A stretch of 64,000 nucleotides of DNA. Source: Gammaproteobacteria bacterium HGW-Gammaproteobacteria-1. GTDB lineage: Bacteria > Pseudomonadota > Gammaproteobacteria > Thiohalomonadales > Thiohalomonadaceae. Location: contig PGZL01000007.1 in NCBI GenBank assembly GCA_002840095.1, positions 62,001 to 126,000 of the forward strand. The letters are read 5' to 3'. The notes under the pieces are model-generated. The model did no database searches, was not told the origin of the DNA, and worked only from the letters and a program-made list of their open reading frames with translations. Positions 49,041 through 62,799 of this stretch are shown piece by piece (the first letter of the stretch is position 1; every line of letters begins with the position of its first letter). The translations under genes and the position numbers were made by a program.

Positions 49041-50156
49041 CTATGACAGTCGCCCGCGCAACACGGCGAATTGCTGCAGGATCGGCGTCACCACCGGCTC
49101 GATCTTCTTGCGCATCACGGTACCGACGGCGTCGCTGTGGGCGAAGATCGGCGTGATGATGGCCTCGTCGATATGCGCCAGGAACATCATGGCGCGCACT
49201 TCGGCCGCCAGTTCCGGCACGGCCTGCAACAGCTGGCACAACGGGCCGCCGGTCACGCCGCACAATGATTCGACACTGGCGTTGATGGCCTCGATCTCGC
49301 GCAGGCCGGGGCCGACCGGCCGTGCGGCGCGAAAATAGCTGCCGATGGCATTGACCAGCGCGGTGACGACATCCTGATCCGCCGGCCGTTGCAGCACATC
49401 GGCCCCCACCTCCAGAAAGGTCTGTCCCGGGCTGTCCAGCAATTTGAGCAGCAGGGCGGCATAGGGATTATCCGTCACCAGCGGCGCCAGCACCGGCCGA
49501 TACTGTTCCAGGTCCGGGCGCGCCGCGACGGGATCGGGCAGCACATCAGGCAGGGTGGCGAGAAAGCCGACGCGATAGGTCTTGCGGGTACGGCCGCTGT
49601 CCCACAGTTTTTTACGGGTCGCGCTGCCGATCAGCCCCGGCTGCAACACCAGCCTCACGGTATCCAGCATGTCCTGGTGCTCGCTCTCGAAGGGCAGGTG
49701 CTCCACCAGAAACTCCGCCAACACCGGTCCCATGCGGCCGGCCACCACCACCGGATTTTCCAGCATGCGCCGGGCATTCTCCGAATAGGGCGCCACCCAC
49801 CAGGCGCGCCGCGCCAGTTCATCGGTCAGCTGGCGCGAACGGCTCACCGCCACCACCGCCTCCGGCTCGCCGATCATCAGCAGTTTGTCCAGGTCTTCGT
49901 TATTGATCTGGCCCATGCGGGTCCAGCGGCGCAGAAACACCGGATAACCACCGGGTGAGCCAAGCACCTGCCCCGACAGCAACTCGCGCACCTGTTGCAG
50001 GTACTGTTCGTTGCGGCAGTTGGGGTTAAGCGTGACCTTGACCTCGCGCTCTCCCTGAAGTCCGTACACGGTAAGGGTGTTTTCGTCGATACGGATCGCC
50101 TCGACGTTGGCGATGAGTACGTTGAGACGCAGGGCGTCTTCATTGGTCAACGACAT
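49041..50156 (-). CDS. DsrS-like protein (tentative sulfur-oxidation accessory)
   Basis: A 371-residue soluble protein with no signal peptide or membrane helix. It begins MSLTNEDALRLNVLIANVEAI and continues YGLQGEREVKVTLNPNCRNEQYLQQVRELLSGQVLGSPGGYPVFLRRWTRMGQ, which I associate from memory with DsrS, a cytoplasmic protein encoded near the dsr genes of purple sulfur bacteria. The C-terminal half is helical. No cofactor motif is visible; a few cysteines are scattered. ATG 50156 has GGGAG upstream, and the longer frame (50207) is not preferred. No dsr genes lie in the window, so the assignment rests on sequence likeness alone. Confidence 0.55.
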   Translation of the reverse strand: MSLTNEDALRLNVLIANVEAIRIDENTLTVYGLQGEREVKVTLNPNCRNEQYLQQVRELLSGQVLGSPGGYPVFLRRWTRMGQINNEDLDKLLMIGEPEAVVAVSRSRQLTDELARRAWWVAPYSENARRMLENPVVVAGRMGPVLAEFLVEHLPFESEHQDMLDTVRLVLQPGLIGSATRKKLWDSGRTRKTYRVGFLATLPDVLPDPVAARPDLEQYRPVLAPLVTDNPYAALLLKLLDSPGQTFLEVGADVLQRPADQDVVTALVNAIGSYFRAARPVGPGLREIEAINASVESLCGVTGGPLCQLLQAVPELAAEVRAMMFLAHIDEAIITPIFAHSDAVGTVMRKKIEPVVTPILQQFAVLRGRLS

Positions 50157-50274
50157 GCCTACTCCCGGAGCGGTGTCTGTGCGGCGCGCCGGTCCAGGCG
50201 CAACCATCCTCCCGGCCCGCGGATAAAATGGAGATGACCCGCCGGAACTTCAAGTGTTCCGCCCGGTACGGGCT

Positions 50275-52794
50275 TCATTCAGTGACCAGGGTCCACGCGG
50301 GACGGTCCGCCGGCGCCACCGGGTCCAGGGAGTCCAGGGGCCGCGGCTTGGCTACCCAGTAGCCTTGCGCATAGTCGACGCCGATAGCACGCAGGGCGTG
50401 AAAGATATCCTCGCTTTCGACGAATTCGGCGATGGTCTTGAGGCCGATCACCTGCGCCACTTCGTTGATCGAGCGCACCATGGCATGATCGACACTGTCC
50501 TCGACGATGTCCTTCACGAACACGCCGTCGATCTTGAGGTAGTCCACCGGCAGGGCCTTGAGGTAGGCGAAGGAGGACATGCCGCTGCCGAAGTCATCCA
50601 GGGCGAAGTAGCAGCCGCGCCGCTTGAATCGGCGCATGAAATCCGTCGCCTTGCCCAGATTGGTGATGGCGGCAGTCTCGGTGATCTCGAAGCAAATCTT
50701 CGAGGCCGGCACGCTGGTTCCGTTCAACTGCTCGTCGAGAAACTCGTGGAAATACTCGTCGCCCAGAGATTTTCCCGACAGGTTGATGGTGCAAAGATGC
50801 AGGCGCTGGTGGCGTGCCGGGTCCGCCTCCAGCCAATCCAGGGCATTACGGATCACCCATCGGTCCATGGTCGAGGCCAGCCCGTAGCGCTCTACGGCGG
50901 GCAGGAAGAATCCCGGCGGGACCAGGCCGCCGTCTTCGTCGATCATGCGGATCAACAGCTCATAGTGCTCGCCCTCCTCCACGTCGTTCACCGGCGCGAT
51001 GCGCTGGGCAAACAGGCGGAAGCGGTTTTCCTCGAAGGCCTGGTTCACCTTGGAGACCCACCGCATCTCGCCGTGGCGTTGTACCAGTTCGCCGTCGTCG
51101 CGGTGATACACGTGGATACGGTTGCGGCCGCCCTCCTTGGCCAGATAACAGGCCGCATCCGCGGTGCTGAGCACGTCGTCCAGTCCCGCGCTTTCAGCCG
51201 TCACCGGCACCATACCGATGCTGACCCCGATGGTGAACAGATTGTCTTCCCACTTGAAACGGAAGTCCTGCAATGCCTTGCGCGTCTCGTCCGCCACACG
51301 GTAGGCCTTTTCGATGCTGCAGTTCTCGAGCAGGATACCGAATTCGTCGCCGCCGAGGCGGGCCAGGGTATCGCTCACCCGCACCTGGCGCTGCAGGATC
51401 ACCGCCACCTGCTGCAGCAACTGATCCCCGGCACCGTGGCCGCTGGTGTCGTTGACCACCTTGAACTGGTCGAGATCGAGGTAGCACATGACGTGCTCGC
51501 CGCCGTTTTGCCGCGCGTCGTCCAGGGCATGCGCCAGACGGCGATCGAACTCGGAACGGTTGATCAGTCCGGTCAGGCTGTCATGGGACGCCTGGTAGGA
51601 CAATTGCCGGTTCAGCTTGCGCGCCTCGGTCACGTCGCGGAACACCAGCACCGCTCCGGTGATGACGCCGACGACGTCCCGGATCGGCGCCACCGACTCG
51701 GTGATGGCGATCTCGCTGCCGTTGCGATGGATCAGCAGGCCGTGCGAGTCCATATCCCGCGCGCGCCCTTCGGCTATGCAGAGCTGGATCGGATCGGGAG
51801 CATCCTGGTGGGAAAACTCGCTCACCACGCGGAACACTTCGGTCAGCGGTCTGCCGCAGGCCTCCACGTTGGTCCAGCCGGTCAGGCGCTCGGCCACCGG
51901 GTTGATATATTCGATTACACCGTTGCAGTCGGCGGTGATCACGCCGTCGCCTATGGATTCCAGCGTCACCAGCGCCCGGCCCTTTTCGCGGTTGAGCGCC
52001 AGGAACTGTGCGGCGAACTGCTGATTGCTGATCATGTAGTCTTCGCGGCGGGCTGCGATCTCGCATACCCGGCGCAGCTGCTCGGAGCGGAACGGCTTGG
52101 CGATGAAATCCGCCGCCCCACCCAACACCAGCTCGGCGGCCCGCTGCGGCGTGCCGTCCGCCGTCATGATTACCACGGTCTGGTGCGGATGCTCGGCCAG
52201 GATCGCCTTCAACACCTCGGGGCCGGACAATTCGGGCAGCATGACGTCGAGCAACACCAGGCTGTGGCGCCGGGCACGCCATGCCTCCAGGCCCGTGAGC
52301 CCGTCCGTTGCCGCTTCAATCTCGAAGCGGCGGTCCAGCACGCGCTGCACGATACGCTGAATATCCGCGTCATCCTCGATCACCAGCAGCGACGGGCGCT
52401 GCGGCAGCCCTCCGCCGCTGAGTGCATCGCGCAGGGTGTGGGGCAGTTGGTGACGCTGCTCAAAGGTGAAAAACCGATTGATTTCGTACTCTTTCGCGGT
52501 CACCTCCGCGATGTGCTCGGAGTAGCTGCGTGACACCACCAGTATCGGGATATCGGCGGGACAGGGGAAAACCCCGGAACGAACCAGGCGCGCAAGGCGC
52601 CAGCCGTCCAGCGTGCCGAGAGGGATGTCGGTCACCAATGCATCGATGGTGCCGTTGTTGAGGTGCTGTATTGCAGCGACGCCGTCGTTCGCCTCGGTGA
52701 CGCGCGCAAAACCCGCCGTATCCAGCGTCTCCCGCAGCGCGCCGCGCAGTTCGGGATCCCGATTGACCAACAGTATGTGCGTCTGATCGATCAT
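50275..52794 (-). CDS. Double receiver-PAS-GGDEF-EAL response regulator
   Basis: An 839-residue cytoplasmic regulator. Order: REC1 (about 1-125; Asp in LVTDIPLGT but no clear switch Lys), REC2 (about 140-265; full set LLVIEDD, LVLLDVMLPELSG, MTADG, IAKPF), PAS (about 285-400; LESIGDGVITAD, NGSEIAITESVAPI), GGDEF (about 415-570; RLGGDEFGILL at 481-485 with inhibitory RVSD), EAL (about 590-825). The EAL signature reads ELL at 612, with NLSG, FEITET, LDDFGSG, DYLKIDG, and the AQGY glutamine kept. Both activities are thus possible. The EAL part closely resembles that of the DUF1631 protein at 14154. It is divergent from the ThDP gene. Its cognate kinase may be the one at 58776. Confidence 0.93.
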   Translation of the reverse strand: MIDQTHILLVNRDPELRGALRETLDTAGFARVTEANDGVAAIQHLNNGTIDALVTDIPLGTLDGWRLARLVRSGVFPCPADIPILVVSRSYSEHIAEVTAKEYEINRFFTFEQRHQLPHTLRDALSGGGLPQRPSLLVIEDDADIQRIVQRVLDRRFEIEAATDGLTGLEAWRARRHSLVLLDVMLPELSGPEVLKAILAEHPHQTVVIMTADGTPQRAAELVLGGAADFIAKPFRSEQLRRVCEIAARREDYMISNQQFAAQFLALNREKGRALVTLESIGDGVITADCNGVIEYINPVAERLTGWTNVEACGRPLTEVFRVVSEFSHQDAPDPIQLCIAEGRARDMDSHGLLIHRNGSEIAITESVAPIRDVVGVITGAVLVFRDVTEARKLNRQLSYQASHDSLTGLINRSEFDRRLAHALDDARQNGGEHVMCYLDLDQFKVVNDTSGHGAGDQLLQQVAVILQRQVRVSDTLARLGGDEFGILLENCSIEKAYRVADETRKALQDFRFKWEDNLFTIGVSIGMVPVTAESAGLDDVLSTADAACYLAKEGGRNRIHVYHRDDGELVQRHGEMRWVSKVNQAFEENRFRLFAQRIAPVNDVEEGEHYELLIRMIDEDGGLVPPGFFLPAVERYGLASTMDRWVIRNALDWLEADPARHQRLHLCTINLSGKSLGDEYFHEFLDEQLNGTSVPASKICFEITETAAITNLGKATDFMRRFKRRGCYFALDDFGSGMSSFAYLKALPVDYLKIDGVFVKDIVEDSVDHAMVRSINEVAQVIGLKTIAEFVESEDIFHALRAIGVDYAQGYWVAKPRPLDSLDPVAPADRPAWTLVTE

Positions 52795-53046: not shown

Positions 53047-54867
53047 ATGACCATGGAACATCGGCATCCTGTCCCGCCCGCTCCGCGCGCTGAACTCGGA
53101 GACCTGCTGGTGCACTATCTAGACCAGATCGGCGTCGAATTCATCTTCGGCGTCCCCGGCGGCGCCATTGAACCTCTTTATAACGCCCTGGCCCGCAGCG
53201 CCCGCAGCGGCGGCCCGCGCGCGGTGGTCGCGCGTCACGAATGCGGGGCTGCCTACATGGCAGACGGCTACACTCGGGAAACCGGACGTCTCGGCGTTTG
53301 TTGCGCCACCACCGGCCCCGGCGCCACCAATCTGATCACCGGCGTCGCCTCCGCCTATGCCGACAAGATCCCGATGCTGGTCATCACCGCACAGACCGCC
53401 CTGCCCTATTTCGGCCGCGGCGCATTGCAGGAATCTTCCTGCACCGCGGTCAACACGGTGGGCATGTTCCAGCACTGCACCGTCTACAACACCCTGGTGT
53501 CGCACCCGGATCAGCTGGAGGGCAAGCTCATCACGGCCATCATGACGGCATTCCAGTCACCGTGCGGACCGGCCCACATCAGCGTGCCGCGCGACGTGCT
53601 GTGTGCCCCCTGGTCCGGCAACAACCCGATATCGAGGCTCGGGACGCTGCTGCGTACACCCAATCTGGTGGACCCGCATGCCGTCGAGGCGCTGTGTGAA
53701 CAATTGACCGATGCGGCGCGCGTGGTGATTCTGGTGGGCGCCGACTGCGGCGATGCCATCGACGCCATCACCAGGTTCGCGGAAGTGATCGGCGCCGAAG
53801 TGGTGACCACGCCGCAGGGCAAGCCGTGGATGGACGCCTACCACCCCCAGTACCGCGGCGTGTTCGGCTTCGCCGGCCATGCCAGCGCCCGCCGGGCGCT
53901 GCTGTCCGAACATACCGATCTGATCCTGGCGGTGGGCACCGACCTGGACGAGTTCGCCACCAGCGGCTGGGATCGTGCCGCGCTGCTCAATGACAAGTTG
54001 ATCCACGTCGACGAAACACTGACCCATTTCAGCCGCTCGCCTATGGCCCGCACCCACCTCTACGGACGCATCAAGACCGTGTTCGAGATGCTGGCGCAGC
54101 GGGCGCAGCAGGCGCAGGATCTGGGCCGCGCCTGTGTCAGCATCCCGGCCGGGGACGGTGCGCCGCCCGACGCCGCCAGCACCCAGTTGCCGGAACAGGA
54201 GCGACGCAACGACAGCAGCCGGCGCTGCGCGCCGCGTCACATCGAACTGGAAGACCCCGCCAAATACCGCCACGAAGGAGCGCCGCTCAAACCGCAGCGC
54301 CTGGTGTGCGAACTCACCCGGCTGTTTCCCGCCGAAACCCGCTTTTTCGCCGACGCCGGCAACAGCTTTGTCTGGACCACCCACTATCTGCACACCCGGC
54401 AACGCGGCACCTATCGCGTGGCCATGGGTTTCGGCGCAATGGCCTGGGCGGTGGGTGCCGCCGTCGGCGGCGCCCTCGGCTGCCGCGGCACACCGGTGGT
54501 GTGCATCACCGGCGACGGCAGCTTCCTGATGAGCGGCCAGGAGATCACCGTGGCGGTGCAGGAACGCCTGCCCGTGATCTACGTGGTGCTCAACGATCGG
54601 GCCCTCGGCATGGTCAAGCATGGCCAGCGCCTGTCCGGCGCCGAGCAGACCGCCATCGAACTGCCGCCGGTGGACTTCGCCGCCATGGGACGGGCAATGG
54701 GCGCCGCCGGATACACCATTACCTCCCTCGCCGACCTTTACGACCTGGATATCGAAGCCCTGTGCGCACGGCCGGGACCGGCGATACTGGACGTATACAT
54801 CGATGGCGAAGAAGTGCCGCCCATGGACATGCGCGTGCGCACGCTCAATCTGCAGCCGGGGATATAG
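53047..54867 (+). CDS. Acetolactate synthase-like ThDP-dependent enzyme
   Basis: A 606-residue member of the acetolactate synthase/glyoxylate carboligase/oxalyl-CoA decarboxylase superfamily. Order: PYR domain with catalytic Glu65 (RHECGAAYMADGY) and CATTGPGATNLITGVASAYADKIP split as in the family; central domain (about 200-330); PP domain with the ThDP motif GDGSFLM at 489 and LNDRALGMVKHG. An unusual hydrophilic insert (about 365-420) precedes the PP domain. No ilvH-type small subunit is adjacent, so it is probably not the housekeeping enzyme. It ends 3 bases from the convergent citrate-synthase-like gene. Substrate unknown. Confidence 0.85.
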   Translation: MTMEHRHPVPPAPRAELGDLLVHYLDQIGVEFIFGVPGGAIEPLYNALARSARSGGPRAVVARHECGAAYMADGYTRETGRLGVCCATTGPGATNLITGVASAYADKIPMLVITAQTALPYFGRGALQESSCTAVNTVGMFQHCTVYNTLVSHPDQLEGKLITAIMTAFQSPCGPAHISVPRDVLCAPWSGNNPISRLGTLLRTPNLVDPHAVEALCEQLTDAARVVILVGADCGDAIDAITRFAEVIGAEVVTTPQGKPWMDAYHPQYRGVFGFAGHASARRALLSEHTDLILAVGTDLDEFATSGWDRAALLNDKLIHVDETLTHFSRSPMARTHLYGRIKTVFEMLAQRAQQAQDLGRACVSIPAGDGAPPDAASTQLPEQERRNDSSRRCAPRHIELEDPAKYRHEGAPLKPQRLVCELTRLFPAETRFFADAGNSFVWTTHYLHTRQRGTYRVAMGFGAMAWAVGAAVGGALGCRGTPVVCITGDGSFLMSGQEITVAVQERLPVIYVVLNDRALGMVKHGQRLSGAEQTAIELPPVDFAAMGRAMGAAGYTITSLADLYDLDIEALCARPGPAILDVYIDGEEVPPMDMRVRTLNLQPGI

Positions 54868-54870
54868 AAC

Positions 54871-55680
54871 TCAGGGAACGTCGCGCGGCGGCGGCCCCTG
54901 GTAGTCGATGTCGTCGCAGCGCAGGGGAAGAAAGGTTTCAGCGGGGCGTTCAAGGGTGTCGACATAGCAGGCCGTCACGCCGCTCATCACGACCATCGCG
55001 AACAAGCGGTAGATTTGCTCCGCATTAAATCCTTGGTCGGACAAAAAGGCAGACACATAGCCGTTGATGTTCATGCTCTCCTTGTAGTCGAGCCGTAACA
55101 CCTCCTCAATGGCGTAGGCCAGGGTCAAGTGTGGACCATGCTCGAACCCAAGGCGAGTGGTAAGCTGCTCCATCGGAGGAATGCGCTCGTCGCCGCTGGC
55201 CAGGGGCCGTGCATAGCCGGTGATGCGTACCTTGCCGCGGTGTTTCTGCACCTCGCGTTGCACGATCTCTGCGGCAGACAGGCCATCCTGATGATCACGC
55301 AAGGCCTGCTGGATGAACGCCACCCCGTCCAGCAAGGGACGGCTGCCGTACATGGTCGAATCCGCGGCCAGCACGCCGGCTGAAGTTGCCGCCACGACCG
55401 ACGCGCGCGCGGTACCGGCCAGGGCGCCAATCTGATTGCACCAAATCCGCGGGTCCGGCCAACTCAGACAAATATGAACGGCTTCCAACCAGTCCGCCAA
55501 GCGACGCTCGGGAAGAACTCCGAGCACGTTCAGCGTGAGCATTTGAAAATAAGATGCCTCGCCAACCAGCTCTTCCAGAATCGAATAGCCGTGACTGAAG
55601 GCCCCCTTGCCGGCGAACCAACCGCCCTTGCGGCTGCGGATCACGCCGCGCTGCCTGTCCCAAGTCTCCCTATTTTTCAT
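54871..55680 (-). CDS. Citrate synthase/citryl-CoA lyase-like protein 2 (active site altered)
   Basis: A 269-residue protein, the size of a citryl-CoA lyase. Fold markers are visible (ASVVAATSAGVLAAD, MNINGYVSAFLSDQGFNAEQIYRLFAMV, final YQGPPPRDVP). The two places where citrate synthases and lyases carry His are changed: the HGGA-like site reads MYGSRP (Tyr111) and the GFGH-like site reads TGYARPLASGDER (Ala157). It overlaps the previous gene by 11 bases, so the two are made together, probably as a hetero-oligomer. It may be a structural or regulatory partner, or have a different chemistry. The superfamily call is from pattern likeness; exact function is unknown. Confidence 0.75.
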   Translation of the reverse strand: MKNRETWDRQRGVIRSRKGGWFAGKGAFSHGYSILEELVGEASYFQMLTLNVLGVLPERRLADWLEAVHICLSWPDPRIWCNQIGALAGTARASVVAATSAGVLAADSTMYGSRPLLDGVAFIQQALRDHQDGLSAAEIVQREVQKHRGKVRITGYARPLASGDERIPPMEQLTTRLGFEHGPHLTLAYAIEEVLRLDYKESMNINGYVSAFLSDQGFNAEQIYRLFAMVVMSGVTACYVDTLERPAETFLPLRCDDIDYQGPPPRDVP

Positions 55681-56500
55681 CTTCGATCACGTAGTCGTCG
55701 TCAGATATCCAGGGCAGGGCCGTGACCGGCTTGTTGGCCAGCTCCACGCCATGGGCCAGCAGTCCCGGCGCGCACAGCAACTGGAACAAGCCCGCCGCAG
55801 CCCGCGGCATGAAGCCAAGGTCGCAGAACGCCGCCGCCGCCACCCCGGTTGCCAGCCAGCCCATCTGGTGTTCGCGCAACTGGGCAGCGAAATCCCGTCC
55901 CCATGCCAACACCGAGCCTACACCCGCGATCGCGATCAGTTCATCGGCGATACCTGCCGCCAGGACATCAGCTGAGCCAAAGCGGCGCCCGAAACCTGCC
56001 ACCAGGTGACGATCGGGATCCCCGGGCAGCTCTTCATACTGCGCCATGAGCTCGACAGCCACCTGTTGCGGGGGGCGGTCCACCGCCTTGCGCAGGAACC
56101 GCATGCTCGGCTCAACCTCCGCGGCTCCCAGGTGCCCTCCCCCCAGGACCATCAACGCGATAGGCAGGACATGCGATGCATCGGTCTTGCCCACGCCAGC
56201 ATTCATGGCGGCCCGCGTGGCCGGGTGCCGCGGACCTGGATTGATCAAGCCGATCATCAGGCGCTCAAGCAGTTGCGTCTGGCGGACGTCGGGCAACTCG
56301 CCGCGAAACAGCAGGAACAACACCTGGGGAAAACTGCAGCGCTGCATCAGCTGCGACAGCTCATAGCCATGACAGCGCGCCGCAACGGCGAGGTAGGGAT
56401 TGTCGGCGGCGGGCTCTTCGTGCCAGATGCGGGTCGCTGCGCGCTCCGTGAAACGGTCTGCCCGCCGCTCGACCCGGTGCTGATCCGTAGGTTCGGTCAC
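55670..56500 (-). CDS. Citrate synthase/citryl-CoA lyase-like protein 1
   Basis: A 276-residue protein starting at GTG 56500, which overlaps the TonB-receptor stop (GTGA). Markers: RIWHEEPAADNPY, LFLLFRGELP, GLINPGPRHPATRAAM, the lyase-like GGGHLGAAEVEPSMRFL with His123 kept, VAGFGRRFGSADVLA where the usual GFGH His is Arg172, and GLFQLLCAPGLLAHGVEL. One catalytic His position is therefore kept and the other replaced. Together with the next gene it forms a paralogous pair of citryl-CoA-lyase-sized proteins. Coupling with a TonB receptor gene is unusual. Confidence 0.78.
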   Translation of the reverse strand: MTEPTDQHRVERRADRFTERAATRIWHEEPAADNPYLAVAARCHGYELSQLMQRCSFPQVLFLLFRGELPDVRQTQLLERLMIGLINPGPRHPATRAAMNAGVGKTDASHVLPIALMVLGGGHLGAAEVEPSMRFLRKAVDRPPQQVAVELMAQYEELPGDPDRHLVAGFGRRFGSADVLAAGIADELIAIAGVGSVLAWGRDFAAQLREHQMGWLATGVAAAAFCDLGFMPRAAAGLFQLLCAPGLLAHGVELANKPVTALPWISDDDYVIEDEK

Positions 56501-58626
56501 AGGTCGAATCTCGCCTGGGCATACAGGCTGCGGCTCGGCAGCCGGTAATCGCCGGGAATGGCCGGGTCGCTGGGTTCGTAGGCCCTGGCATCGAACAGAT
56601 TGTGGATGCTCAGGGTGAATCCCCAGCCCGTAGCCGCATTGTCGTGACGCAGGGTCAGGTGGGCCAGCGAGTAGTCGGGTACCGGGTCGCGGTCGTCGCC
56701 GGCGGCACGTTTTCGATCGGCCACCCAGCTGCCCTGCAGGGCCGCCTTCCAGTTGGCGACGAACTCCCACTCCAGCCCCGCATAGATCTGCTGGCCGGGC
56801 GCATCGGGCACCGTGTCGCCGCCGGTCTTGTACTCCGCGCGCTGCACGGCGTAGCTGCCGAACAGGCGGACGCGCGGCGTAGGTTTCCAGTCCGCCTCCA
56901 GTTCCAGTCCCTGGCCGGTCTGGCCGGACGTATTGGTGGCGATTTGGGCCCCGGTGCCGGGGTCGACAACGAAATCGATCAAATCCTTGGCATCGTAATG
57001 GAACAGCGACAGGCCCACGCGGGAGGAAAACGTCACGCGGTAGTCGAATGCGAGCTCGGCCGTGTCGATGGTTTCCGGCTTCACGTCGACATTGCCCACC
57101 AGGGAGGGGTTGTTGATGAAATAGAGTTCGGACAATGAGGGCGCGCGAAACGCATGCCCGTAGAGAAGCTTGGTGGTGAGCTTGTGCGTGGTCGACCAGA
57201 CCAGGGCGGCGCGGGGATTGGTGGTCGAACCGAAATCCGAATAGCGGTCGTAGCGTATGCCGGCGGTAAGCTCCCAATCGGGTGCCAGGGCCCATTCATC
57301 CTGGGCCGAGACAAACCAGAGATCCCGCTGTCGATCCTTCATGAAGACGAAATCGGTGGCGCTTACGTCGGTAAGGGAGCCATCCACCGGCGAGACACTG
57401 CCGTCAATCACACCGGGACCAAAATTTTTGCTTTCGCTGGTATCAATCTCTTGTCGCGTGACACCAGTCCCTAGTCTAAGCGTATGGCCTTCCCAGCCTC
57501 GGAAGACTCCGGTTACATTCATCGAGTAACTCTTATCGATCCCAGAGGGGGCTCCTATTACACCGTCGGTAAAGGTCACCAGCGCACAACCGCCACCACA
57601 GGAAAACAGGTTGCCGTCGGTCCCCACCAGCACCGTGGCGCCCGCCGGCAGTACGGTGAACCGGTTGCTGTCCTTGAGGTATTGATAGGTGAGATGGGTG
57701 GTCACGTCCCAGTTCTGCGCCCAGTCATCGGCGCGGTAACTGAGATCGACCAGATACTTCTCTTCGTCGGTCCGTCCCTCCGGGTCCAGGGCCTGGGCCG
57801 AACCAGGACCGACGCCGGCGTCATACTGACGCCAGCCCCAGAAACTGAGGTTCCAGCGATCACGCGCCAGGTTCAGATGGGTATCGAGGATGTCGTAGCG
57901 GGTACTGAGCGCAGCGGGCGCGCGGGAGGCGTCGGTGCTGAAACTGGCATCGAACGTCGATTGCAGATCGGAATCGACGGTACGCTTGCTGTCGCCGTCG
58001 CTCTTCAGCCACTCGACGCTGGCGGCTACCTGCCAGCCGCCGGCTTCGCCGCCGTACTGGGCAAACACGTCGGTGGTGGAAAAAGAGCCCGCGCCGACGC
58101 CGGCCCTGGTGCCTGCGATGTCGGCGGCCTTCTTGGTAATCACGTTGATCACGCCGGCATAGGCGTCGGCGCCGTACACTGCCGAACCCGGTCCGCGCAT
58201 CACTTCCACGCGGACAATGGCCGCCACCGGCAGACGAAAGGTATTCGGGCGGCCGCCGGTGGTGAACTGGGTGATGGGAATACCGTCGATCAGCATCAAC
58301 ACCTGCGGGTTCTGCCCGGTATGGATGCCGCGGATGGAGTAGATGGAATTCAGTCGGTTGAAAGATGAGGACACGTGCAGACCCGGCACCATCTCCAGCA
58401 CCTGGTCCAGGTCGGTGGCCCCGTGCGCTGCAATGTCGTCCGCGGTGATGATCGATGCCACGGCGGGAGCCAGACGCACCGACTTGCTGAGGCCGGTGGC
58501 GATACTGACGCTTTCCTCGTCACCGTAAAGCAGGGCCAGTTCGCCGTCGTCGCCTTGTGCCCAGGCCAGCCCCTGGTACTGGCAGATAAGCAACACGCCG
58601 ACGGATACCGCATGACGCATGTTCAT
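56497..58626 (-). CDS. TonB-dependent outer-membrane receptor
   Basis: A 709-residue receptor. Signal peptide MNMRHAVSVGVLLICQYQGLAWAQG, then a plug domain (about 45-160: SIITADDIAAHGATDLDQVLEMVPGLHV, RGIHTGQNPQVLMLIDGIPI, RVEVMRGPGSAVYGADAYAGVINVITK), then a 22-strand barrel ending RSLYAQARFDL with terminal aromatic-X-hydrophobic pattern. The ligand could be a siderophore, cobalamin, haem or small acid; sequence alone does not tell. ATG 58626 has GGGAG upstream. It is coupled to the citrate-synthase-like gene and lies 149 bases after the histidine kinase gene. Confidence 0.92.
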   Translation of the reverse strand: MNMRHAVSVGVLLICQYQGLAWAQGDDGELALLYGDEESVSIATGLSKSVRLAPAVASIITADDIAAHGATDLDQVLEMVPGLHVSSSFNRLNSIYSIRGIHTGQNPQVLMLIDGIPITQFTTGGRPNTFRLPVAAIVRVEVMRGPGSAVYGADAYAGVINVITKKAADIAGTRAGVGAGSFSTTDVFAQYGGEAGGWQVAASVEWLKSDGDSKRTVDSDLQSTFDASFSTDASRAPAALSTRYDILDTHLNLARDRWNLSFWGWRQYDAGVGPGSAQALDPEGRTDEEKYLVDLSYRADDWAQNWDVTTHLTYQYLKDSNRFTVLPAGATVLVGTDGNLFSCGGGCALVTFTDGVIGAPSGIDKSYSMNVTGVFRGWEGHTLRLGTGVTRQEIDTSESKNFGPGVIDGSVSPVDGSLTDVSATDFVFMKDRQRDLWFVSAQDEWALAPDWELTAGIRYDRYSDFGSTTNPRAALVWSTTHKLTTKLLYGHAFRAPSLSELYFINNPSLVGNVDVKPETIDTAELAFDYRVTFSSRVGLSLFHYDAKDLIDFVVDPGTGAQIATNTSGQTGQGLELEADWKPTPRVRLFGSYAVQRAEYKTGGDTVPDAPGQQIYAGLEWEFVANWKAALQGSWVADRKRAAGDDRDPVPDYSLAHLTLRHDNAATGWGFTLSIHNLFDARAYEPSDPAIPGDYRLPSRSLYAQARFDL

Positions 58627-58775: not shown

Positions 58776-60356
58776 TCATGTTTTCTTGATCGGCAGCGGG
58801 ATGGTAACGGTGAACACGGAGCCTTTACCCGGAGCACTGCTCAGGGTCACGTCGCCGCCCATCAAGCGGGACAACTGGCGTGTGATGGCCAGACCGAGAC
58901 CGCTGCCCTCGAAGCGGCGCTTGGCTCCGCTGTCCACCTGGCGGAACTGTTCAAATACCACCTGCTGCTGTTCCTCGCTCATGCCGACGCCGGTATCGGC
59001 GATCTGTATCGACAACAGGTGGGGACGATGTTCGGCAATCACGGCGATGCGGCCCTGCTCGGTGAACTTGGCGGCGTTGCTCATCAAGTTGAGCAGGATT
59101 TGTACCAGGCGCCCGCGATCGATCTGCAATGGCCCGGCCTCGTCGATGATCTCGATGTCCAGCTGATCCCCGTTCTGCACCACCAGCGGCCTGACCGTAG
59201 CCTCCGCCTCTTCCAGCACCTCGGCCAGCGCCACCGGCTCCAGATGCAGTTCCATGCGGCCGGCCTCGATCTTCGCCAGGTCCAACACCTCGTTGATCAG
59301 ATTGAGCAAATGCTGCGCACTGCGCTGGATTCGATCCAGATCGTCCATGTGATCGTCGAGTCCCTCGTCCTGCAGGGACTCCGCCACCACATCGGTGTAG
59401 CCGATGATCGCCTGCAACGGCGTGCGCAGTTCATGGGTCACGTTGGCCAGGAACTCGGATTTGTGACGGCTCGCCGCCTCGGCCACGTCGCGCGCAAGCA
59501 CCAGCTCCTTGGTGCGCAAATCCACCTCCGATTCCAGCCGCTCGTTCTGCTGTCGCAAGCGGCGGTCGCGCTCCGCCAATGCCTGGATCATGGCATTGAA
59601 CACGGCGGCGATACGCGCCACCTCACGCGGGCCATCCAGCGTCGCCTGCACGCCGGTTTCACCCTGCTCGGTGCGCTGCATCAAGGCGGACAAGGCCAGC
59701 AGCGGCCGCGTCAGGCGCGCCAGGATCAGGTTCAACACCAGCAACAGCACCAATGCGAACAACAGGGCAATGGCGATATTGTTCCGGAACACCCCCAGCT
59801 GGATTGCGCGCAGGTCATCCTTGCTGATGGCTACGTAGGCATGGCCGAGCAGTTCGCTCGACGTGTGTTCGACCGCGTAGGCCGGCAACTCCGATTCCGC
59901 ATGCTCTCCGGGCGCATACACCGGCGCCATGAAATGCCAGGCGGCGTTGTCCTCATGGATCAATGCAACCCGCTCGGCCGGCCAGCGCAGCAGGCTGCGG
60001 GCGAGTAGCGGCGCCTCTGCGGTCCCGCGCGTGACGATGGCGTTGTGGCGCAGGTCGAACAGCACCACCCGCTTCACCCCCGGGAACGCCATGCTGGCCT
60101 GGATGGAATCGTCGGCACTCTCGCCGCTGGCGTAGAGCAGAGCCAACACGCTGCGCTGCGCCAGGTCTTCGGTGACCTGCAGGCCTTGCGCAACCGACAA
60201 CTCGCGATAGTGGTTGGCGGTGACCCAGGCCGTAGCGACGGAAACGGTCACCGCGAGAGCCGCCACGCCAAGCGAAAACGCCAGGAACAACTGGCGACGG
60301 AAACTGAGCTTGCGGGAAAAAAACCAGCGGATGCGTGCGACTGCGGGCGCCATCAT
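58776..60356 (-). CDS. Membrane sensor histidine kinase
   Basis: A 526-residue kinase. Two membrane helices (LFLAFSLGVAALAVTVSVATAWV and AIALLFALVLLLVLNLIL) flank a periplasmic sensor domain (about 48-190). HAMP (about 210-265), HisKA with phospho-acceptor His308 (ANVTHELRTPLQAIIGY), and HATPase_c (NLMSNAAKFT N-box, IADTGVGM G1, GSGLGLAITRQL G2). No response regulator is adjacent; the double-REC protein at 50275 is a candidate partner. It starts 6 bases after the upstream binding-protein gene, with GGGGG very close to ATG 60356, so ATG 60353 may be used. Confidence 0.93.
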   Translation of the reverse strand: MMAPAVARIRWFFSRKLSFRRQLFLAFSLGVAALAVTVSVATAWVTANHYRELSVAQGLQVTEDLAQRSVLALLYASGESADDSIQASMAFPGVKRVVLFDLRHNAIVTRGTAEAPLLARSLLRWPAERVALIHEDNAAWHFMAPVYAPGEHAESELPAYAVEHTSSELLGHAYVAISKDDLRAIQLGVFRNNIAIALLFALVLLLVLNLILARLTRPLLALSALMQRTEQGETGVQATLDGPREVARIAAVFNAMIQALAERDRRLRQQNERLESEVDLRTKELVLARDVAEAASRHKSEFLANVTHELRTPLQAIIGYTDVVAESLQDEGLDDHMDDLDRIQRSAQHLLNLINEVLDLAKIEAGRMELHLEPVALAEVLEEAEATVRPLVVQNGDQLDIEIIDEAGPLQIDRGRLVQILLNLMSNAAKFTEQGRIAVIAEHRPHLLSIQIADTGVGMSEEQQQVVFEQFRQVDSGAKRRFEGSGLGLAITRQLSRLMGGDVTLSSAPGKGSVFTVTIPLPIKKT

Positions 60357-60362
60357 TCCCCC

Positions 60363-61301
60363 TTACCTGCTCGGGAACACCAGGGCGAAATCGCGCTCCT
60401 GGCTGGGTGTGTAGAGCATGCCGAGGTGGGAGGCCGTACGCAGGTTGACCGCAATCCTGAGATCACGCAGGGGCTCAACGCCGGGATCGGTCCGGCCGTG
60501 CTGCGCCATCCCCAGGGCCATGTTCGCCAGGCGCCGCCCCATGCCCTCATGATCGGGGTAGAGTGAAAACAACGCGCCTTTCTCGGCGTGGGACGGATTG
60601 TCGGAGAACACCACCAGGCGTTTTTTCCAGGCGGCCTCGAGTATCAGCGGCAACACCGTCTTGTCCGGCGCGACGATATCCAGCGGCAACCAGATTGCGT
60701 CCTGCTGCTCACGCACGGCATCGAGCACATCCAGGTAATTTTTCACGGCCGTGCGCATATCGGCGGCCTCGGAGGCGAGCAACTGTATGCCGTACCGCTC
60801 GGCCAGGCGTTCGGCCCGCCGCACCAGCCAGCCGTTGTGCTTTTCGCTGTACACCACGAAGACCCGCTTGACCCGGGGAGTCAGCTCGCCGAGGCGGCGC
60901 AGGAACTGCTCCGGGTCCGCGGCCAGGCTGATGCCGGACACGCCGTCGGGCGCCATCAGCGTGGCACCCACCACCACCGGTGTATCCGCCGCGAGGCCCT
61001 TGGCAATGTTGTAGCCGCGCTGCCCCAGGGCGATGACTGCGTCGGGCCGCTCATCATTCAGCCAGGCCTGCACCTCGTCGCCTTGGGCGGCGCTGGCCAG
61101 GGCGCGCGGCAACACGCGCACCCCCGGCGTCTGCTGCACGCCGGCGATGATGCTTTCGAACACTTGGGAATAGGCGCCGGAGGTTTCGGGGTAGATCACC
61201 GCGATGGTAGCTGCATGTCCGGTCGGCGCCATCAGCCACAGTGCCAACAGCGTTGTCCATGCCGATAGTCCCGTTCGCCTGCTGCAGAGACTCCGCCGCA
61301 T
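60363..61301 (-). CDS. ABC-type substrate-binding protein (PF04392-like)
   Basis: A 312-residue periplasmic protein. Signal peptide at the N-terminus (MRRSLCSRRTG, then SAWTTLLALWLMAPTGHA). The binding fold has IAVIYPETSGAYSQVFESIIAG, RPDAVIALGQRGYNIAKGL, and VKRVFVVYSEKHNGWLV motifs of the ABC_sub_bind (TrpX-like) family. No permease or ATPase genes lie nearby. With the sensor kinase immediately downstream it may act as a ligand-presenting partner for signalling rather than in transport. ATG 61301 is chosen because it opens the signal peptide. Confidence 0.87.
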   Translation of the reverse strand: MRRSLCSRRTGLSAWTTLLALWLMAPTGHAATIAVIYPETSGAYSQVFESIIAGVQQTPGVRVLPRALASAAQGDEVQAWLNDERPDAVIALGQRGYNIAKGLAADTPVVVGATLMAPDGVSGISLAADPEQFLRRLGELTPRVKRVFVVYSEKHNGWLVRRAERLAERYGIQLLASEAADMRTAVKNYLDVLDAVREQQDAIWLPLDIVAPDKTVLPLILEAAWKKRLVVFSDNPSHAEKGALFSLYPDHEGMGRRLANMALGMAQHGRTDPGVEPLRDLRIAVNLRTASHLGMLYTPSQERDFALVFPSR

Positions 61302-61554
61302 TATCTGATCCCTGTTGTTGCGCTCTCCACGCCTGGCGGCATCGTGGTCGCACCCAGAATTTCCGCCGCCAGTATACACGAGCCGCCCCTGCGGGTAGCG
61401 GCTCCCGCGGAAGGGATAGCGGCCGTCTTGGAAGAACAAAACACAAAGATTTGACCACAAGGACGCGGAGGCACGGGCTTTACCTGGCGAAACTCATCAC
61501 ATGGCCGGTGTTCCCCGTGGTTTGCCTGCCTGGCTTTCGGGCGTAGGGGGGCGA

Positions 61555-62799
61555 CTAGTTGAGTTGCACCCGTTGCCCCCAGGGCACCTTCGCCTTGCCC
61601 TTGACCAGCCAGATCACGGGAAATCCTGGCTCCTGCGTCGGAAACTCCCCATCCGCGTCGGTGAAGTAGACCAGCAGGTCAGGTTGGCGGTCTTCGCGCT
61701 CCAGCCAGTCGAACACCGGCCGGAACGAGGTGCCGCCGCCGCCGGTGAACTCGCGCGGTAGCTTGAACTCCTCCCACGGTTCGTAGCTCCACGGCCCGTC
61801 CGCCGCCAGCTGCGCGTCGCAGGCATGCAGAGTGACGCGGGCCCGCACCTGTCCCTTGATGGCGTCGATCTCGGCCAGGAATTCACCCATCTCCTTGTCG
61901 CTGACGGAGCCGCTGGTATCCAGCGCCACCACGATGTCGATTTCCGAGGACCGCAGACTGGGGAATATGGCGTCACCTTCACGACGTGAGGGGCGCGAAT
62001 AGTTGTAGTCGTCGCGGGCGGTGGCCGTCATGTAGCGGGCCAGCAGCATGCGCCAGGGCAGTTGCGGCTGCAGCAGGTGATCGATGAGCCGCGCCAGCGC
62101 CCCGCCCATTTTTCCCGCCTGCAGCGCCTGCTGTGCCGCGCCGGCCATGCGCTGGCGCCACTGCACCGACAGGCGCTCGCGCTCTTCATGGGACAACGGC
62201 TCGGGCCTGGGTGCGCCACCCTTGCCGTCCTGCGGCCGCTCTTGCGGTTTGCCGCCGCCGCCCTTGTTGTCCTTGTCCTCCTGCGTCGCCTTGCCGGCGC
62301 CGCCTTCACCCTTGTCGCCGCCGCTGCCGGGCGTGCCGCCCTGATCGCCGCTGTCCTGATCATAGACATGCTCGTCGTGCGGCTGCATCGACTCGGCCTC
62401 GTCCAGACAGGGATAGATCTCCTCCGCCGTCATGCCCTTGTATTCATCGAGGAACAGCGCATCCTGTACCGGGGTGAGCCCTTCGTCGATGAGCAGCGGA
62501 TTGATGGCCAGATCACAGGCCACGTCCCAGCGATGGCGATCGCGGTGCTGACGGCGGGCAAAATGGGACAGCGCGCAGTGCAGGGCCTCGTGGGCCAGGG
62601 CGAACTGGGTCTGATCGAGGGTCAACGCATCCATGTACTCGGCGTTGTAGTAGAACGCGCGCGCATCCGTGGCGGTGGTCTTGCACCAGCGCGGATCGGC
62701 GGCCACCAGCGGCAGGCGCAACACCAGCGCGCCGAGAAACGGCTTGTCCAGGATCAGCCTGGTGCGCGCGGCACTGAGTTTGGTTTCGAGATCAGACAT
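61555..62799 (-). CDS. DUF2201 VWA-like metallopeptidase protein
   Basis: A 414-residue protein. The N-terminal putative metallopeptidase region has the zinc motif HEALH (His70, Glu71, His74), followed by HRWDVACDLAINPLL. A Gly/Asp/Lys/Gln-rich linker (about 150-205) leads to a C-terminal VWA-like domain with a MIDAS-type DTSGSVS and FTDADGEFP. Such proteins pair with MoxR ATPases, as here: the ATPase gene lies upstream on the same strand, with a dispersed repeat in the 105-base gap. It may act as a chaperone or protease-like assembly factor. Confidence 0.9.
   Translation of the reverse strand: MSDLETKLSAARTRLILDKPFLGALVLRLPLVAADPRWCKTTATDARAFYYNAEYMDALTLDQTQFALAHEALHCALSHFARRQHRDRHRWDVACDLAINPLLIDEGLTPVQDALFLDEYKGMTAEEIYPCLDEAESMQPHDEHVYDQDSGDQGGTPGSGGDKGEGGAGKATQEDKDNKGGGGKPQERPQDGKGGAPRPEPLSHEERERLSVQWRQRMAGAAQQALQAGKMGGALARLIDHLLQPQLPWRMLLARYMTATARDDYNYSRPSRREGDAIFPSLRSSEIDIVVALDTSGSVSDKEMGEFLAEIDAIKGQVRARVTLHACDAQLAADGPWSYEPWEEFKLPREFTGGGGTSFRPVFDWLEREDRQPDLLVYFTDADGEFPTQEPGFPVIWLVKGKAKVPWGQRVQLN

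Follow-up and report, generated by a model that had tools for sequence, protein, structure and literature searches.

What do two overlapping genes do when both encode proteins of the citrate-synthase fold and neither keeps the classical catalytic set? The genes, here called P1 and P2, lie in the window, by which we mean the whole 64,000-nucleotide stretch analysed, from contig PGZL01000007.1 of Gammaproteobacteria bacterium HGW-Gammaproteobacteria-1. We regard the chances as evenly poised that they form a remodelled heteromeric citrate-synthase-fold enzyme, part of a pathway with a product that the cell senses and relays, mostly to cyclic di-GMP (c-di-GMP). This reading is based on the observed fold, residue changes, conservation, pairing and gene association, including one fusion of P1 with a thiamine diphosphate (ThDP)-dependent enzyme. 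The P1/P2 complex, its status as an enzyme, its product, and the sensing of that product rather than of an outside compound are what we infer from sequence. The pair is laid out as follows.

55670 to 56500, minus strand: P1, citrate-synthase-fold protein of 276 residues, GTG start at 56500
54871 to 55680, minus strand: P2, citrate-synthase-fold protein of 269 residues, ATG start at 55680
55670 to 55680, minus strand: overlap of the P1 stop and the P2 start, 11 bp

Both open reading frames (ORFs) were confirmed at the lengths and with the overlap that an initial annotation of this DNA had proposed, and the 11-bp overlap likely couples their translation.

Structural and profile comparisons agreed on the fold of both proteins. 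AlphaFold models, computed from alignments of natural sequences (73 rows for P1, 78 for P2), reached a mean predicted local distance difference test score (pLDDT) of 93.9 for P1 and 93.3 for P2, and Foldseek returned citryl-CoA lyase 6hxp as the top match to each (prob 1.00; P1 E 2.4e-11, TMq 0.74; P2 E 1.4e-11, TMq 0.78), ranking ATP-citrate lyase modules and citrate synthases next. The same PDB entry was matched by sequence at E 1.1e-15 for P1 and E 1.2e-10 for P2, and the two profiles aligned to one another over 220 columns with a probability of 98.1. The NCBIfam citryl-CoA lyase models were matched below their cut-offs (P1 E 2.2e-23, 82.7 bits against 261; P2 E 6.3e-16, 58.3 bits against 245), and Pfam PF00285 fell under its gathering score at E 2.3e-4 for each protein. 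Among aligned relatives, identity to the window protein ranged from 33 to 59% for P1 (72 rows) and from 42 to 65% for P2 (77 rows), which argues against a chance resemblance. The citrate synthase/citryl-CoA lyase pattern that had been recognised earlier is thus borne out, and both models identify P1 and P2 as citryl-CoA-lyase-fold proteins.

Closer comparison with citryl-CoA lyase itself (the PRK06224 family, 6hxp of Hydrogenobacter thermophilus, and the corresponding module of ATP-citrate lyase) revealed a shared fold and length and, in P2, a shared C-terminal 'Y.G...R' tail and DPR-type arginine. Unlike that enzyme, however, P1 and P2 lack the GFGH histidine and the catalytic aspartate at their columns, P2 has a tyrosine at, or one residue from, the place of the other catalytic histidine, and two paired paralogues stand in place of one protein. 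We rejected ordinary citryl-CoA lyase as an identity for either protein because the catalytic residues are absent and the scores lie far under the family cut-offs, and class them as a citrate-synthase-fold variant. Weak similarity invites the citryl-CoA lyase label; the residues contradict it.

The residue changes hold across the family. We profiled 108 loci in three clades, comprising 80 loci in clade 1 (the best 80 of 85 confirmed), 24 in clade 2 and four in clade 3, which represents another class of the window's phylum; loci and genomes carry L and G numbers. In a joint MAFFT alignment of 99 P1 rows, 104 P2 rows, four citryl-CoA-lyase-like proteins and the window genome's citrate synthase, the GFGH column held histidine in all four lyase-like rows and the citrate synthase, but in 0 of 99 P1 and 0 of 104 P2 rows, with arginine in all 104 of the latter. 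The catalytic aspartate of the NxDG motif was absent from every P1 and P2 row (0/99 and 0/104) and kept in the citrate synthase and three of the four lyase-like rows, the fourth (L224) lacking both this aspartate and the HGGA histidine. Citrate synthase is a separate protein in the window genome (L225), with its GFGH histidine and aspartate in place.

Window P1, which carries an NPGPR motif, has His123, Arg172 and Thr218 at the three catalytic positions. The replacement of its GFGH histidine by Arg172 (GFGR), as reported by the initial annotation, was confirmed. Its claim that the HGGA-like His123 is kept is correct for the window protein (GGGHLGAAEV) but does not extend to the family, where the HGGA column is histidine in 49 of 73 clade-1, 1 of 24 clade-2 and 0 of 2 clade-3 P1 rows; position 123 in the clade-1 alignment is histidine in 50 of 74 rows, tyrosine in 15 and phenylalanine in 4. 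P2 is distinguished by WPDPRxWCN, Tyr111, GYARP with Arg158, and DER with Asp164 and Arg166, and has Asn206 at the catalytic aspartate position. Both of its histidines are indeed changed (MYGSRP and TGYARP), but the GFGH column falls on Arg158 and not on Ala157, the position given earlier; the loss of the aspartate from both proteins had been missing from the list of changes. With the GFGH histidine and the aspartate absent from their columns in all rows, the case against ordinary citrate chemistry stands, tempered by the displaced histidines of P1 described below.

In P2 the altered site is strongly conserved. Arg158 and Arg166 were present in 104 of 104 rows over the three clades, and Pro75, Asp76, Arg78, Trp80, Cys81, Asn82, Tyr111, Arg158, Pro159, Asp164 and Arg166 were invariant in all 81 clade-1 rows. 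Citrate is bound by the DPR arginine in the citrate-synthase family; its counterpart, Arg166, is universal in P2 and occurs in 2 of 73 clade-1, 0 of 24 clade-2 and 2 of 2 clade-3 P1 rows. Tyr111 pairs with the HGGA histidine in the profile alignment and is placed one residue further on by MAFFT, and we therefore describe it only as at or next to that place. No P2 row has a histidine inside two columns of the GFGH place. These patterns suggest that the P2 pocket, whose lining is assigned by alignment, has been rebuilt rather than decayed and may be catalytic. The invariant polar residues and the neighbouring ThDP enzyme thus point to a remodelled enzyme in a pathway rather than to a regulator, the function that had been suggested at the outset.

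P1 and P2 also travel together. Of the 208 aligned rows, 73 were chosen randomly inside each group to build a tree; in it all P1 rows formed one clade (34 rows, 100/99) and all P2 rows another (34 rows, 100/100), answering whether the pair would separate phylogenetically. As each is monophyletic over the three clades, the P1/P2 split must be older than those clades; the tree is loosely rooted among citryl-CoA lyases, P1 and P2, the citrate synthase row and L224 are long-branched, and the joining of L224 to P2 is suspect. Profile searches of 369 genomes of the window's class found both proteins in 41, P1 only in one, P2 only in one (G197) and neither in 326. The P1-only genome, G372, was rejected as an exception to the pairing since its protein is a true citryl-CoA lyase with GDIH, GFGH and NIDG intact. 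Given this near 1:1 co-occurrence, the overlapping genes and the separate clades, a P1/P2 hetero-oligomer is plausible. Where P1 was missing or cut at the locus, it was present in 4 of 8 genomes. Four loci (L066, L068, L069 and L070) have P2 without an adjoining P1, with P1 elsewhere only in the L068 genome.

The distribution of the pair is broad and patchy. P2 occurs in 42 of the 369 class genomes (14 strong and 28 medium scores, the latter including G053, where the gene is in pieces), and the pair in 2 of 20 genomes of the window's own family. By record labels, the best 80 of 85 loci belong to Gammaproteobacteria, Gallionellaceae, Desulfuromonadales, Desulfobulbaceae and Magnetococcales, with a few further loci, for example in Nitrospirae and Chloroflexi metagenome-assembled genomes (MAGs). 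A plasmid search with P2 gave no match; with P1 it gave 28 records, of which the 20 matches listed were 25-33% identical and citryl-CoA-lyase-like. One contig titled as a Klebsiella pneumoniae MAG (L082) has its island arranged as in L086, from an uncultured gammaproteobacterium, perhaps through a binning or naming error. For clade 2 we took 26 of the 28 medium-score genomes (not G211 or G274), and the 24 loci exclude G053, for its broken genes, and G154, where P2 lies apart from ThDP-P1. L064, from the same genome as L006 and sharing its 173,906-base contig, was kept among the 80 clade-1 loci and excluded from the clade-1 alignments of P1, P2, ThDP enzyme and TonB receptor; a partial P1 row (L016), an over-long P2 row (L046) and two cut P2 rows (L081 and L084) were left out of alignments A4 and A5.

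P1 and P2 are two of seven genes that make up an island in the window. The other five are listed here.

56497 to 58626, minus strand: TonB-dependent outer-membrane receptor, plug and barrel (Pfam)
58776 to 60356, minus strand: sensor histidine kinase of 526 residues, HAMP, HisKA and HATPase_c
60363 to 61460, minus strand: PF04392 binding protein of the periplasm, with a remote likeness to TrpX, 6 bp upstream of the kinase gene
53047 to 54867, plus strand: ThDP-dependent carboligase-like enzyme of the acetolactate-synthase superfamily, convergent with P2
50275 to 52902, minus strand: REC-REC-PAS-GGDEF-EAL protein, carrying a GGDEF motif and divergent from the ThDP gene

Binding protein, kinase, receptor, P1 and P2 form a contiguous minus-strand run of five, in which the receptor stop shares 4 bp with the P1 GTG. 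Two starts were set by eye, that of the receptor at the signal-peptide methionine (its frame is open up to 58779) and that of the GGDEF-EAL protein at a likely methionine near 52794. Adjoining the island are a 388-residue ORF without a Pfam match (49041-50207), beside the GGDEF-EAL gene, and a DUF2201 putative metallopeptidase/VWA-like protein (61555-62799).

The ThDP enzyme has three TPP-enzyme domains (Pfam), and its catalytic Glu68, Gly-Asp-Gly 492-494 and Asn519 are invariant in alignment A6, a hand-picked set of 35 rows with none of the more distant type. It scored under the cut-offs of the 25 NCBIfam models listed, the best being an acetolactate-synthase model (299.6 against 538.35 bits), and a ScyA-related model ranked fourth behind acetolactate-synthase models. 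The nearest solved chains were BbmA (E 6.4e-88) and CsmA (E 1.1e-78), which presumably catalyse couplings similar to those of ScyA and NzsH. According to PMC9822442, the latter two each join a pair of alpha-keto acids into an acyloin or a beta-keto acid. The window enzyme resembles the carboligases BbmA, CsmA and ScyA in its three domains, catalytic glutamate and GDG motif, and differs from them in having P1/P2 and a sensing module as partners.

Co-occurrence ties this enzyme to the pair. At a ThDP profile threshold of E 1e-150, P2 and the ThDP enzyme were both present in 40 of the 369 genomes, P2 only in 2, ThDP only in 8 and neither in 319 (Fisher p about 5e-43, without ancestry correction). 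The P2-only genomes are G053, with broken genes, and G146, at a contig end; contig ends interrupt two of the ThDP-only genomes, G083 and G224, and the tail of P2 is visible at that of G083. A single 886-residue ORF fuses the ThDP enzyme with P1 at one locus (L137, 6776-9436). The two genes are not always adjacent: they lie 265 kb apart in G090 and on different contigs in G197, G211, G215, G219, G324 and G362. Two of these, G219 and G324, have at least about 9 kb of sequence beside P2, away from contig ends, in which the ThDP gene is absent; with G090 they count as cases where 10 kb or more separate the two genes. In some of the other genomes with separate contigs the genes may be adjacent across contig ends. 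Among 21 clade-1 genomes whose P2 locus lacks the ThDP gene, 13 have it elsewhere.

Beyond this core, a wider gene set recurs. ORF clustering over 81 loci recovered the TonB receptor in 75, kinase/GGDEF-EAL in 58, the ThDP enzyme in 56, the PF04392 binding protein in 38 and a short-chain dehydrogenase/reductase (SDR) in 17, every remaining cluster beside P1/P2 occurring in 9 loci or fewer. By profile, the 80 clade-1 loci contained P1 in 73, TonB receptor in 74, ThDP enzyme in 58, binding protein in 40 and kinase/EAL in 46; contig ends cut many of the profiled loci, and among the 35 clade-1 loci with both 10-kb flanks the counts were 35, 33, 31, 19 and 25. The 24 clade-2 loci had ThDP enzyme in 24, P1 in 23, kinase/EAL in 19, TonB receptor in 18 and binding protein in 17, and all four clade-3 loci (L211, L212, and the low-scoring L231 and L232) were arranged TonB-P1-P2-ThDP-binding protein-kinase. 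Gene order and strand differ between lineages and the set is not always complete. The citryl-CoA-lyase-like control loci (L213, L222-L224) had none of the partner genes. We rejected random neighbours as an explanation in view of a gene set that recurs over the 108 loci, though not with every gene in each.

Companion enzymes vary. An SDR gene lies at most 330 bp from P2 in 10 genomes (11 of 81 loci), sharing its strand in 9 of these genomes, and sulfotransferase-type genes lie within 0.9 kb of P2 in four (L040, L051, L052 and L058); both were named from BLAST clusters, Pfam confirming three SDR and two sulfotransferase genes (L040 and L052). In two genomes with the ThDP enzyme and no P2, G052 and G150, the TonB receptor, binding protein and kinase are all kept, and between the ThDP and TonB genes stand a KAS III-like protein with a 131-residue protein without a Pfam match (G052, L220) or a methyltransferase (G150, L215).

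The remaining partners suggest how a ligand could be perceived. The binding protein has remote matches to TrpX (E 4e-7) and to PDB 3lkv and 3lft, all of which we take to be binders of aromatic amino acids. Its kinship, together with that of the ThDP enzyme to ScyA, BbmA and CsmA, prompts our guess that the product would be of the aryl acyloin type. The candidate synthesis genes are linked to a periplasm-reading kinase in the window and in many, though not all, loci. By profile scoring the kinase is fused to GGDEF-EAL in 6 of 24 clade-2 and 2 of 80 clade-1 loci, and in L141 and L159, where domain checks recognised a fused HK-REC-Hpt-REC-GGDEF-EAL protein, the binding protein is its immediate neighbour, which ties sensing to c-di-GMP; L140 has a large kinase without GGDEF-EAL. 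At the Cellvibrio-type loci L233 and L234 the ThDP gene lies apart from P1/P2, directly beside a GGDEF-EAL gene. One further locus, L156 (G053), has TonB, P2 and ThDP genes with broken frames and whole binding-protein, kinase and EAL genes, as if the maker had been lost and the sensor kept, although an assembly error may be the cause.

From these associations we propose the following scheme. P1 and P2 would be long-diverged paired subunits that have abandoned classical citrate/citryl-CoA chemistry, with a P2 site in which the DPR-type Arg166 is kept, Arg158 replaces the GFGH histidine and Tyr111 stands at or next to the other histidine. Together with the ThDP carboligase-like enzyme they would constitute a short pathway to a small-molecule product; an acyloin or an alpha-hydroxy-beta-keto acid is probable, with P1/P2 serving as the scaffold for further joining or trimming. 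In the window form the TonB receptor would import the product, the PF04392 protein would bind it, and the histidine kinase would read it and pass phosphate to the REC-GGDEF-EAL protein, so changing c-di-GMP.

As we read it, the island may act like a synthase-plus-sensor circuit, and parts of it have known counterparts. In the LuxPQ system the kinase receives its signal from a periplasmic binding protein, and the island likewise pairs such a protein with a kinase. It resembles FecA-type cell-surface signalling in tying a TonB receptor to signal transduction and differs in that the window receptor has no N-terminal signalling domain (Pfam) and is adjoined by a kinase and c-di-GMP proteins. According to PMC3376566, the alpha-hydroxyketone signals CAI-1 and LAI-1 are made by the pyridoxal phosphate (PLP) enzymes CqsA and LqsA and read by kinases, with the synthase gene beside the sensor-kinase gene (CqsA/CqsS, LqsA/LqsS) as in the island. 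Those synthases use acyl-CoA, whereas here a ThDP enzyme and a citrate-synthase-fold pair would take their place; the island further differs in its TonB receptor and GGDEF-EAL output, and is not known to respond to cell density.

A bolder extension, which we hold tentatively and lean against, is that the island represents a new signalling class. The ThDP enzyme and the citrate-synthase-fold heteromer, with its active site remade, would make a signal, possibly of the aryl- or indole-acyloin type, that is re-imported through TonB, sensed by binding protein and kinase and relayed to c-di-GMP; exchangeable companion enzymes would set its dialect, and a large kinase of cytoplasmic type would take over the sensing in Magnetococcales. 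Among the matches listed from the open-access literature, with subscription papers mostly uncovered, no title or abstract opening named this gene set.

Several observations count against a remodelled heteromeric enzyme with a sensed product. The co-occurrence counts ignore shared ancestry. The ThDP enzyme occurs with no P2 anywhere in six genomes (G052, G094, G150, G221, G222 and G223), in four of which (L216-L219) neither a TonB receptor nor a binding protein adjoins it, and a more divergent kind of ThDP enzyme (319-360 bits against more than 500) is encoded at about 10 loci. Conversely, no ThDP enzyme was found at E 1e-100 in 8 of the 21 clade-1 genomes mentioned above, which are MAGs of no given completeness. 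P1 was likewise not found in four genomes, those of L066, L069, L070 and L023; in L023 a P1 tail sits at the contig edge. P1 pocket residues vary among clade-1 rows, so P1 may be only structural. A separate caution concerns the simple loss of catalytic residues: a histidine stands one column past the GFGH place in 18 of 24 clade-2 (PGFDPH) and 5 of 73 clade-1 P1 rows, and a second one five columns past the HGGA place in 16 of 24 clade-2 rows; P1 of clade 2, and of other lineages, may thus have moved a catalytic residue. At the thresholds used, 16 of the 35 full-flank clade-1 loci lack the binding protein and 10 lack kinase/EAL. No recurring exporter was found among neighbours of the P1/P2 loci. 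Finally, the Magnetococcales loci L056, L061, L067 and L072 have ThDP-P1-P2 without TonB receptor or binding protein.

In three of these four Magnetococcales loci the next genes encode a Ser/Thr kinase-AAA-GAF-histidine kinase of 1.7 thousand residues and a LuxR-family response regulator (domains checked in L067), and this kinase is, by its domains, a candidate for another sensor beside ThDP-P1-P2. L227-L230 are also Magnetococcales loci with ThDP-P1-P2 and neither TonB receptor nor binding protein.

The alternative that survives best, though we consider it unlikely, is that the island senses and consumes an outside compound, which TonB would import, the binding protein and kinase detect, and the ThDP enzyme and P1/P2 degrade by retro-Claisen or retro-aldol cleavage. 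TonB receptors normally bring in scarce nutrients, the nearest relative of P1/P2, citryl-CoA lyase, is a cleaving enzyme, and kinase and binding protein read the periplasm, all of which agree with this view. A consumed compound fits poorly, however, with the want of a widely recurring inner-membrane transporter (among clusters listed, the largest transporter-like one, ABC-ATPase-like by eye, occurs in 7 of 81 loci and a permease-like one in 3), with companion enzymes some of which are of tailoring type, and with an output through c-di-GMP rather than a catabolic regulator.

It is rather improbable that the enzymes instead make a hydroxy-carboxylate metal chelator that returns through the TonB receptor. 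Alpha-hydroxy acids do come from citrate-synthase-type chemistry, and the receptor is similar to PDB structures of colicin I, B12 and enterobactin receptors as well as to haem/siderophore receptor models. Yet the best 19-mer Fur-box matches upstream of the TonB, ThDP, binding-protein and P1 genes were about at background in a test of low power, and the neighbour clusters listed include no widely recurring exporter or inner-membrane transporter; on these grounds we set aside an iron-siderophore operon as the leading explanation. A kinase and GGDEF-EAL protein would also be unusual in such a system, and a form without TonB exists.

Similarly doubtful is a non-enzymatic role in which P1/P2 bind a ligand and regulate the ThDP enzyme or report a metabolite level. 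Acetolactate synthase is regulated by small subunits, the natural ThDP-P1 fusion would suit such an arrangement, and P2 has lost the classical catalytic residues, window P1 two of the three. However, the invariant polar residues of P2 are those expected of chemistry or tight binding, and a KAS III-like protein or a methyltransferase replaces the pair in two ThDP-TonB operons, one case each. That P1/P2 are functionless decayed duplicates of citryl-CoA lyase, as the lost catalytic residues might imply, is very improbable, and we rejected it because of residues invariant over three clades and several phyla, frames open in nearly all rows, and the pairing of P1 and P2 in 41 of the 43 genomes having either.

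Collectively, these findings would describe a pathway that, at 42 of 369 class genomes with P2, is widespread and undescribed. If the remodelled-enzyme reading is true, P1/P2 would represent a natural citrate-synthase fold that works without the catalytic histidine/histidine/aspartate set. If the signalling reading is also true, the island would give bacterial communication a synthesis chemistry new to it, together with a return route gated by TonB and an output through c-di-GMP.

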